Origin: Sporosarcina pasteurii
GTDB taxonomy: Bacteria > Bacillota > Bacilli > Bacillales_A > Planococcaceae
Reading direction: 5' to 3'
Assembly: GCF_041295575.1 (NCBI RefSeq)
Contig: NZ_CP160452.1
Span: forward strand, 1,798,001 to 1,862,000
Length of the DNA stretch: 64,000 nt
Numbering within the stretch: position 1 is the first letter of the stretch; every line of letters begins with the position of its first letter. The notes under the pieces were generated by a model that saw only the letters and a list, made by a program, of their open reading frames with translations, was not told the origin of the DNA and did not search any database. Shown here in pieces: positions 23,995 through 53,364 of the stretch. Position numbers and translations under genes: made by a program.

Positions 23995-24406
23995 TACCAT
24001 AGGAAATTCGATAAGCCATGTTTTGTTCCCGTGTACTCAAACGGCGAATGCCTCGTACTAGGGTGGTAATCATCTATCTACAGGAATGTTTTCCTGTCCC
24101 TTCGTCCGTTCATTTCCTTTCGAAGAGTGCCCCTACCATAGTTTGGGTTTCTCACTTATGGGGTTTACCGCGTTCCACCTGATTCGTTTCCGAAGCAGCT
24201 ACGTTTCTGTGGCACTGTTCAGGGAACCTAGCCCATATTAAGCAAGCTTAACTTAGGACGTATTCCCGCCGTCATCGCATATTTGCGATGCCCCAGCTTA
24301 TTTTTTTGCTGAGCATAAACACTACGGTCATCTCAGATCCGTGTGAGCATGGACTTTCCTCTACAAAGACAAGCTTTGCAGCGATTACCTAAATTTGCGC
24401 TACGGT
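23995..24406 (-). ncRNA. rnpB: RNase P RNA, bacterial type B
   Basis: The catalytic RNA of RNase P, which trims the 5' leader of tRNA precursors. On the minus strand the conserved blocks of Bacillus type B RNA appear in order: GGTAATCGCTGC, GTAGAGGAAAGTCCATGCTC, GCCACAGA, GGTGGAACGCGGTAAACCCC, GAGAAACCCAAA, GGTAGGGG, TGTAGATAGATGATT, ACGAGGC and GGAACAAAACATGGCTTA. The length of about 410 nt fits the type. A consensus sigma-A promoter lies just upstream and a terminator just downstream, so both ends are well bounded (within about 3-5 bases). Type B RNA is diagnostic of the Bacillales. Confidence 0.97.
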
Positions 24407-40054: not shown

Positions 40055-40381
40055 GATTGAGTCAAGTTTTTGTGGGTGCTATTTTAAGCAGTAATTTTCT
40101 CTTCTGGAATAGATAGGTATTCCATTTTTAATAATGTCAAATAAAATATGTTGATTTCCGTTCCGAGCGGACGCGTTCGGTGGGGCGTGCGGTGAGCCAA
40201 TCGCAAAACGCAGATTGCGATCGGCCGTATTTCTGCGGTTTTTGCAGAAATTAAGGCATCCGATTAGATATTCATGCTCATAACGCTTCGCTTTTACTCG
40301 CAAAAGCCGTTCTTCGTTACAGCTTTCGCTACTCCCACCCGAGTCGCCGCTCTGCACTCCAATCAACAGAGATACCTAATA
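40055..40381. repeat. Composite repeat copy 1, left segment
   Basis: Nearly colinear with 52215-52510 in direct orientation (shared GATTGAGTCAAG at the left, AATCAACAGAG at the right). It contains a hairpin with an 8-bp stem and 7-base loop GGTTTTT (40229-40251), another with arms ATCGCAA/TTGCGAT, and a module with CGCAAAAGCCGTTCTTCGT. The frame that reads as protein here also appears in the second copy, which reflects the repeat rather than a gene. Confidence 0.85.
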
Positions 40382-40870
40382 TATAAATTTTTAAACGCAT
40401 ATAACTTTCATAGACTGTGTTTATAAATAACTTCGTTGATCTTCGCTAACTCAATATCCCTAGAAGCTGTTCGAGCAGATTGTCCTTCTACCGCTAGCTC
40501 CATTGCCTTCTCTTGAACTAGCGGACTTAATCCTTTAGCGACTTAAAATTGTAAATGTTGACCTAATAAACTTGAGCACTTTCAGCTTTCTAAATAAATC
40601 TGTTTTAATCTCTATCAATGTTAGTAATTTCGTATTACTTTTCATCATGTCGGTTCTCTCCTTTAGTGTTCGTGTGCAAACTTCACCGTGAAAGAAGAGA
40701 GCCCTTTATTCATGCCTTCAAATCCAAATTATTCAATGTGCATTCCTATTAATCGTAGTGGAAATCGGCGACTCCAGCGGGAACAGCGCGAGCTGAAAGC
40801 CCCGCAGGAGCGTAGCGACGAGGAGATTGAAGCCGTGCCCGCGGAAAGCGTCCGATTGGAACGGAGATTA
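40152..40870. repeat. Composite element 1 bounded by inverted 23-bp ends
   Basis: The left arm TGATTTCCGTTCCGAGCGGA+CGC (40152-40174) is an imperfect inverted copy of the right arm GCGTCCGATTGGAACGGAGA+TTA (40848-40870). The right segment (40591-40880) matches 52801-53305. Between the segments is a decayed reading frame. The right part carries the GC-rich block CCGCAGGAGCG, GAAGCCGTGCCCGCGGAA known to me as a common intergenic repeat in Bacillales. Confidence 0.7.
40408..40648 (-). pseudogene. Decayed transposase-like ORF in composite element 1
   Basis: An ATG after GGAGAG begins MMKSNTKLLTLIEIKTDLF and stops at 40535; a shifted frame then reads LVQEKAMELAVEGQSARTAS, RDIELAKINEVIYKHSL to a TGA at 40408. 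The second part resembles a helix-turn-helix of a transposase, but the match is from pattern only. Copy 2 at 52.8 kb starts with a related peptide. One frameshift at least. Confidence 0.35.
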
Positions 40871-40927
40871 ATTGTTCTATAGCTTATCACCAATAATCCT
40901 TTTACTCATACTAATCATTTCAAAACA

Positions 40928-43121: not shown

Positions 43122-43281
43122 TAAAAAACCTTCTGTCTAAAAATGGACAGAAGGATTGCGTCATCACTTTAAAATGGTTTCCTCCGTCCCTGTCTTATTT
43201 TAAGATCAAGGCAGATCATGTTTGAACGAACTATTTAATTATCAATTTTTCTGTTGGTGCAGTTCGAATATGATACTGCCC
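43122..43281 (-). promoter_or_regulatory. Structured leader of panBCD with terminator (possible pan RNA motif)
   Basis: Reading the minus strand, GGCAG(T)ATCAT (43270-43280) pairs with ATGATCTGCC (43210-43219), and CGAAC with GTTCG (43262-43266 with 43227-43231), giving a long stem with an internal loop. Further on, CCTTCTGTC pairs with GACAGAAGG (43129-43154) before a T6 run, a good terminator. An upstream GGACGGAGG (near 43182-43190) can pair with CCTTCTGTCC, the terminator's 5' arm, and so act as an antiterminator. This fits attenuation of panB. The 'pan' motif (Rfam) is known upstream of panB in Firmicutes; identity is not confirmed here. Confidence 0.6.
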
Positions 43282-43290
43282 TACAAGTTC

Positions 43291-52214: not shown

Positions 52215-52510
52215 GATTGAGTCAAGCTTTTGTGGGTACTATTTTAAAGAAGAGATTTTCTCTTCTCGGATCTAAGTATTCCATTTTTAAAAACGCCAAA
52301 TAAACCATGTTGATTTCCGTTCCGAGCGGACGCGTTCCGAGGGGCGTGCGGTGAGCCAATCGCAAAACGTAGATTGCGATTTGCCGTATTTCTGCGGTTT
52401 TTGCAGAAATTAAGGCATCCTCTTGTATACCCATGCTCATAACGCTTCGCTTTTACTCGCAAAAAGCCGTTCTACGTAACGGCTTTCGCTCTGCACTCCA
52501 ATCAACAGAG
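52215..52510. repeat. Composite repeat copy 2, left segment
   Basis: Direct repeat of 40055-40381. It has the same ATTTCTGC/GCAGAAAT hairpin with GGTTTTT loop (52388-52410) and a CGCAAAAAGCCGTTCTACGT module that folds as AAGCCGTT/AACGGCTT. Copy 1 carries about 20 extra bases near its right end. Confidence 0.85.
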
Positions 52511-53297
52511 TTTCCTTTTACATAAGTTTTTATAAACGCAAATAACTTACATAACTTTGCTATCTGAAAATACCTGTAATTCTTTTAAAGCTCAATAAAC
52601 AGGATTTCCAGTTGCTTGGTGTAAGTAAGAAATGTTTTTTCTAATCGCCTCTCCAGCACTAGTTTTAATTTTTTCTCTGTAATATTTGGGTGTTTTACTT
52701 TCTACTCGGTTTTCAAGGTATTTGTCACGGTTAGGCTAAAACTTGATTTAGCTCTGTTTAGAGCTGGGTGAAAGCATCCGAATAAGTTAGTTGAAGCGCT
52801 CTAAATTAATCTGTTCCAATCCATTCCGATGTTGGTAATTTCTTGTTATATTTAATCATGTCGGTTCTCTCCTGTAGTGTTTGTGTGCAAACCTCACTAT
52901 ACAAAAAGAGGGCCCTATTTTTCATGTTTTTAAATCTAAATTATTCCATGTGCATACCAATTAATCGGAGTGGAAATCGGCGAGTGCTCTCAAACGCTGC
53001 GCTTTTTGGTCGCAAAAGCCGTTCTTCGTGACGGCTCTTCCAGCGGGAACAGCGCGAGCTAGCCGAACGGCGAAGTGTTCGGTTTGTATAATTTTTGTGG
53101 TCTTTACAAAAATTATACAGAAAGTTTTGCCCCGCAGGAGCGCAGCGACGAGGAGATTGAAGCCGTGCCCGCGGAAATAATAAATGCGGAAGGAGGCGAT
53201 TAGATGCGACAAGCATAAGACGAATTAACGGAGTGGCGATTTTTGCCACGCAGGTGCCTCCTGAGGCTGGATAAGCGTCCGATTGGAACGGAAATTA
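52311..53297. repeat. Composite element 2 bounded by inverted 23-bp ends, with three nested insertions
   Basis: The arms TGATTTCCGTTCCGAGCGGA+CGC (52311-52333) and GCGTCCGATTGGAACGGAAA+TTA (53275-53297) are inverted. Compared with element 1, the right segment has three extra blocks at about 52984-53037, 53061-53129 and 53177-53274. Block 1 repeats the CGCAAAAGCCGTTCTTCGT module; block 2 is a 14-bp hairpin with loop GGTCTTT (53085-53119); block 3 holds GTGGC/GCCAC with loop GATTTTT (53233-53249) inside AGGAGGC/GCCTCCT. Confidence 0.75.
52592..52859 (-). pseudogene. Decayed transposase-like ORF in composite element 2
   Basis: An ATG after GGAGAG reads MIKYNKKLPTSEWIGTD then stops; the start resembles that of element 1 (MMKSNTKLLTLIEIKTD). 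Further on another frame reads RDKYLENRVESKTPKYYREK, IKTSAGEAIRKNISYLHQAT, GNPVY to a stop at 52592. Multiple stops and frame changes; family uncertain. Confidence 0.35.
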
Positions 53298-53364
53298 ATT
53301 GTGTTATGGATTTTTATTTATCCTCCACAAACATTTTACTCATACCATCATTTATAATCAGACC

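Follow-up and report, generated by a model that had tools for sequence, protein, structure and literature searches.

The window examined here, a 64,000-nt stretch of the Sporosarcina pasteurii genome, contains an intergenic repeat in a plain and in a much longer form, which raises the question of how the longer form came about. A sequence-only reading had proposed that small hairpin cassettes inserted into the repeat, and into one another, at three separate points. We find distinct modules, in both orientations, with near-constant borders and nested within one another, in a repeat whose fold is marked by covariation; they are present at some loci and absent at others that are shared with a close relative. 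This upholds much of the proposal, of which active insertion, suggested by sequence comparison, is the part that stays an interpretation. Taken as a whole, we think it rather probable, with clear reservations, that a structured scaffold received hairpin cassettes by insertion, spread as a passenger and through an enzyme acting in trans, and exchanged its interiors by recombination. The names of the modules (P, Q, R, B, S, T, K and V) were coined in this analysis; G000 is the genome of the window and G075 that of a close relative, with flanks mostly 88-95% identical.

Architecture of the composite copy

The composite element (52961-53299, plus strand, 339 nt) is a K-type scaffold that carries cassettes P, B and S. 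What belongs to the scaffold, all on the plus strand, is a 5′ arm (52961-52983), a segment between P and B (53037-53060), a segment between B and S (53130-53177) and a 3′ arm with the terminus (53275-53299), one of 65 termini in the genome. Cassette P, a 53-nt unit running GTGCTC...GACGGCT, lies on the minus strand (52984-53036) at scaffold site 1 (GGCGA^CTTCC). This insertion is the CGCAAAAGCCGTT module, and the earlier claim that the same module recurs in the left segments was borne out (91%). Cassette B (53061-53129, minus strand, right border approximate) is located at an inner loop of the scaffold and consists of a hairpin at 53063-53082, recognised by eye, and a longer one at 53085-53119 with a perfect 14-bp stem and the loop GGTCTTT at 53099-53105. 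Cassette S (53178-53274, plus strand) is a foldback between scaffold GGAAA and GCG; it is shortened, being internally shorter than S in loci L002 and L003, and its loop, read from the sequence, is GATTTTT at 53238-53244. The outer borders of the three insertions, 52984 and 53274, agree with those proposed from the comparison of the two copies. Five plain copies from elsewhere align to a 348-nt query around the window copy only near 1-29, 85-106, 175-223 and 319-348, and the gaps in these alignments correspond to the three insertions.

Further scaffold copies are found in the window. One, which provided a left segment of the sequence-only reading, has the opposite orientation (52309-52506, minus strand) and contains P-like, Q and R segments. 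The plain scaffold without cassettes, the "copy 1" of that reading, is at 40748-40872 on the plus strand, and beside it, in the opposite orientation, is a scaffold bearing P, Q and R (40150-40367, minus strand). Between the composite and its neighbour lies an insertion sequence carrying both scaffolds, of which the 5′ part is present in degenerate form (52520-52955, minus strand, limits approximate and drawn by eye). On the minus strand, two open frames that run across the repeat (52941-53249; 102 and 83 aa) are likely to be spurious.

A structured scaffold present across the family

The scaffold is a dispersed, structured intergenic repeat of about 125 nt with a long imperfect hairpin fold. 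Its own genome yielded at least 73 matches to the 348-nt query, with 40 of the 77 first-look candidates scored, and the count of 65 for the 3′ terminus (at most three mismatches) compares with 0 for a reversed control. Forty-one copies in this genome could be paired with a 5′ end, and range in length from 57 to 406 nt. Terminal inverted repeats are present (GTTGATT / AATCAAC) and form helix 1, in which 99.1% of cells are paired.

The fold was assessed on an alignment of 32 copies (18 of 56 T-type and 14 of 38 K-type), from which near-identical or overlong copies had been omitted. RNAalifold returned 38 pairs, 25 of them changed on both sides compared with 12.4 in shuffles (0/500 as high); this is the better measure, although kinship alone can lift sequences above shuffles without structure. 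Paired cells make up 96.9%, against 86.1% in shuffles (0/500 as high) and 31-43% when the structure is slid, a control that is too favourable because the structure was derived from the same sequences. Further pair types number 46 versus 40.3 in shuffles (3/500). The fold z-score is -3.92 as RNA and -3.76 as DNA, none of 100 shuffles being as good, and on the given strand G-T cells exceed A-C cells by 23 to 12.

A covariance model built from plain copies (R1), which favours the plain form and cannot gauge cassette frequency elsewhere, finds matches at E <= 1e-4 in 192 of the 200 genomes of the order, at most 17 candidates being scored per genome; these cover 17 of 17 genera, all of them in the scaffold's own family. 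Across the class, matches at E <= 1e-5 occur in 32 of 151 genomes and 16 of 81 genera, including eight other families. The window's scaffold copies have no match in Rfam 15 at gathering score, and at E up to 1 there is none either over the L001, L009, L013 and L023 scaffolds; the Rfam matches in these four loci fall outside the scaffold. The results point to an abundant structured repeat, found in nearly every genome surveyed in the order, that lacks an Rfam entry.

Cassettes and their insertion sites

Modules were counted over 182 distinct copies gathered from the collected loci. Minus P stands at site 1 in 18 of the 18 copies that carry it, followed in each case by (C/T)TTCC and preceded in 17 by GGCGA or a one-letter variant, with 0-4 extra letters. 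Plus P occurs in 47 of the 182 copies; in the 22 that fit the search strings it mostly follows GGGATTAGCGAA or falls within the apical scaffold. In two copies, however, plus P lies in a truncated 5′ arm (E051, E058), which counts against a clean insertion account, and P-QR copies resemble insertion combined with the loss of one scaffold arm. Up to seven P units stand in tandem in a single scaffold (L319, G075:C1:161000-161900, 216-727).

Of the 13 copies of S that lie inside a scaffold, 10 are flanked exactly by GGAAA and GCG; two of the others are one letter off (E098, E015) and one is left-truncated (E171). Together with the near-constant borders of P at site 1, this agrees with constant rather than random insert borders, a point on which the sequence-only reading had staked its proposal. 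The modules are not equal. All 27 P matches listed for the own genome fall in scaffolds (26 by their intervals and the one at 258741 by eye), so that no P outside a scaffold was found among the 27 matches scored, whereas S also stands alone, with 14 of its 25 matches outside the listed scaffold intervals, some of them tandem or short.

B and QR have one layout, two hairpins of which the longer has a 7-nt loop, with B reversed. The loops are alike (GGTCTTT in B and GATCTTT in Q; AAAAACC on the other strand), and the earlier observation of similar 7-base loops holds for this pair; the likeness is not clear for S, whose loop is a T-run that varies among copies. Restricted to perfect stems of 9 bp or more, and so passing over imperfect ones such as those of many Q, a search of the 182 copies gave 33 hairpins. 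Eleven of them have 7-nt loops: GGTCTTT five times, AAAGAAC twice, and GATCTTT, AAAAACC, AAAAAAC and CAAAGAA once each. A further hairpin, GGGAAAAAGGTAGTTCACTTTTTCCT, is seen in some copies (e.g. L256 1501-1760 and L302 237-679).

QR is also found in a second, unrelated host. At 2070217 and 2181648 in the own genome (81% each) it lies within matches to the Bacillaceae-1 RNA, which span 131 and 129 nt compared with a 67-nt model and score 38.7 (L077) and 37.8 bits (L078) over a cut-off of 35, versus 76.0 (L024) and 74.0 bits (L022) for uninterrupted copies. A third candidate site at 1217788 (L079) is alike by eye and has no Rfam match. The same cassette thus occurs in both the scaffold and the Bacillaceae-1 RNA. 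At the interrupted sites this RNA is itself, judged by eye, inside an S-type foldback; one uninterrupted copy directly follows an S half-match (L022) and another lies within an array with S (L024). These findings indicate two roles for Bacillaceae-1, as a guest of such repeats and as their host.

In the scaffold, site 1 of P and the site of S coincide with unpaired alignment columns (24-25 and 113-115, respectively), B is located at an inner loop, and where P/QR is apical it takes the place of a weak hairpin. V, a hairpin that replaces part of a stem, does not fit this pattern of loop insertion. Across 23 Sporosarcina loci there were 10 matches to P, 10 to QR and none to B or S (E 1e-3). In the 12 loci from other genera (11 matched by R1, plus Bhargavaea) the same threshold gave no P, QR, B or S, although these loci were picked as unbroken scaffold matches and are biased toward cassette-free copies. 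Such a natural series of nested copies may serve as a test bed for the rules by which hairpins insert into folded hosts.

Carriers, ends and candidate movers

Judged by shared flanks, the window's scaffold pairs are carried by decayed copies of an insertion sequence. Next to the L002 copy, and not on the window itself, a fragment of 66 aa matches UPF0236 (PF06782, 1.9e-10), the family of the ISLre2 transposase. This same insertion sequence is seen with no cassettes in its scaffold passengers (L018-L021), with P and B (L004), and with P, B and S (L001-L003). Its own ends look unlike those of the scaffold by eye. In two other genomes, G077 and G332 (L356-L375), scaffolds lie within larger near-identical repeats that resemble other mobile elements; with the scaffold inside a larger repeat, these copies were of no use in the search for target duplications.

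In the flanks of 27 free-standing G000 copies no target-site duplication was seen by eye. Letters outside the termini of these copies are partly conserved (G at 0.70 in position -9, T at 0.93 in position -3), so the true ends of the element are uncertain and may lie about 10 nt further out. Our searches found no dedicated transposase. A Y1 transposase is encoded in 51 of the 68 genomes of the genus; G000 has only two copies, both with stops, and it is absent from G010 and G011, which carry 11 and 6 termini. A Y1/RAYT enzyme as the mover is out of keeping with these three genomes, and we rejected it. The L013 element had no match in plasmids and phages at E 1e-5.

Insertion, deletion and exchange at shared loci

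To compare content between species, sequence tags were matched in G075 for 26 of 28 loci (all except 2359051 and 638767); with the pheS locus added, the shared set comprises 24 scaffold loci and three loci with S only. By module search of G075, the scaffold is present in both genomes at 13 of the 24, reduced to a remnant at two and absent at nine, the last verdict being weak at 431325, where alignment failed beyond the tag. At 277438 G075 retains the 3′ end, and loss of the scaffold there is likely. No clean whole-element empty site was found in G075, whose intergenic flanks differ too. Six of the 13 loci are, by eye, the same insertion (443749, 895503, 1900662, 2041571, 3142712 and 3235907). 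The other seven have different flanks or the opposite orientation and were omitted from the comparison of content (408582, 451662, 673885, 909219, 1938520, 2366678 and 2983449, three of them oppositely oriented). At these seven, one intergenic region holds unlike scaffold copies in the two species, which hints at insertion hot spots or local inversion.

Content differs at all six sites judged to be the same insertion. At 443749, S is missing from G075: the gap measures exactly 122 nt, and the element strand has the plain junction CGGAAAGCG. S is also missing in G075 at 3235907, and 3142712 holds two P in G000 versus one in G075 (a 65-nt gap). Outside this set, a 303-nt S array at 2968718 is missing in G075, which retains the start of the next unit; the three S-only loci have no S in G075 by module search, yet parts of S do align at 2741853. 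At other shared sites the whole interior differs. At 2041571, P-P-Q-R plus an S-like foldback in G000 stands opposite T in G075, and 1900662 has T versus P-Q-R with changed arms; the arms differ too in two cases in all, and recombination could be the cause. Two species alone do not polarise a change; the plain junctions are the consensus of the wider scaffold. With a plain scaffold throughout the family, and with S missing and the junction intact at two loci shared with G075, we prefer insertion to deletion as the account of P, B and S.

Among other explanations, the one that survives best, although we judge it unlikely, holds that the modules are domains, or expansion segments, of a functional structured RNA that have been gained and lost without transposition. 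The strong covariation and the excess of G-T over A-C cells would be expected of such an RNA, as would a tendency to run with co-directional neighbour genes, a weak bias (50 versus 27, p 0.012) in a count that takes some shared loci twice. By genome the figures are 15-16 versus 7 in G000, 18 versus 6 in G075 and 7 versus 5 in G005, and there is little or no bias outside G000 and G075 (3 versus 3 in G003, 6 versus 6 in the GTDB loci), which weakens the argument. One copy, L009 (G000:C1:927469-927835), whose scaffold bears P, Q, R and S, is located between a T-box leader match, at 87 bits compared with a cut-off of 93, and the start of what is presumably pheS; the counterpart locus in G075 has no element. 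Also against the reading as RNA domains are the many copies in differing intergenic places, their carriage inside insertion sequences, the variable content at every one of the six shared sites, and the occurrence of S alone.

A little less likely again is a mosaic produced by ectopic recombination or gene conversion among old element types, in which no cassette ever moved by itself. The wholesale exchange of interiors at 2041571 and 1900662 is what this would predict, but S and QR occur outside scaffolds, and homologous exchange would hardly place P at several points and in both orientations. Very improbable is a history of deletions from a longer ancestor, with long copies old and short ones derived: minimal copies of 42 nt, 57 nt and, at 895503, 68 nt and the truncated P-QR copies do resemble deletion products, but the plain 125-nt form is common to genera and families, its junctions are those found at the plain sites, and with a module-free form across the family such deletion is not the better account of P, B and S. 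The earlier preference for insertion over deletion hence stands for these three cassettes and needs to be widened elsewhere, as there are also deletions, and interiors swapped as a whole.

We return to the reading that we prefer, insertion of cassettes into a scaffold. The scaffold would be a non-coding, family-wide repeat that keeps its hairpin fold by compensatory change. P, QR/B and S would have entered it at a small number of fixed positions, for the most part unpaired loops, such that the fold survives, with QR and S acting as cassettes in their own right. We infer that cassettes may have transposed as a folded strand and that the loops may be chosen and not just tolerated. Copies would have spread as insertion-sequence passengers and probably also by means of a transposase acting in trans, and recombination between copies would have exchanged interiors; both the trans-acting enzyme and the recombination step are postulated. 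A more ambitious generalisation, to which we attach little probability, is that these are layered hairpin parasites: cassettes with conserved loops would move as folded single strands into the loops of larger repeats, including a catalogued RNA. The host fold would be left undisturbed, and compensatory change would rewrite the cassettes' own stems.

Relation to known repeats

Several classes of bacterial repeat bear comparison. MITEs such as bcr1, ERIC, Correia and RUP are also short, non-coding, dispersed foldback elements with inverted termini; the repeat described here differs in that no target duplication was seen by eye and no parent insertion sequence was identified. REP, BIME and REPIN sequences with RAYT likewise combine short palindromic units, but the own genome of our repeat is without a linked Y1 transposase. 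The double-hairpin elements of fungal mitochondria are small mobile hairpins and, as organelle elements, are unlike the repeat here.

The nearest kind is the BOX element of Streptococcus, in which, according to the accessible part of the published account, boxA and boxC surround a variable number of boxB units (PMC3049150). The likeness, judged on architecture, lies in fixed outer parts with an optional internal hairpin in variable number. In contrast to BOX, the present repeat has at least three cassette types, which occur at several points and in both orientations; one of them also lies in an unrelated host, and the host organisms are different ones. The same portion of that account has BOX, RUP and SPRITE inserting into one another, and proposes a link between BOX and ISSpn2 via terminal repeats (PMC3049150); no link to a parent insertion sequence was found for our scaffold. 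The sequence-only reading knew of no description of such a system. This may stand for the scaffold, which has no Rfam match, and has to be given up for composite, mutually inserting repeats as such, which are in print in that source.

No published description of the scaffold repeat was recognised from titles and the starts of abstracts, and literature searches with four terminus strings returned only papers that, by title, seem unrelated. Bhal-1 and Bhal-2 of B. halodurans are named, in the part of the source available, without a sequence to compare with the scaffold (PMC2267715). The Bacillaceae-1 RNA (RF01690), which is tabulated in the accessible part of PMC2864571, is a nested part of S-type foldbacks and a host of QR, and is not the scaffold. 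Other known structured RNAs elsewhere in the window, both on the minus strand, are a pan motif at 43180-43282 and an RNase P class B at 24007-24396.
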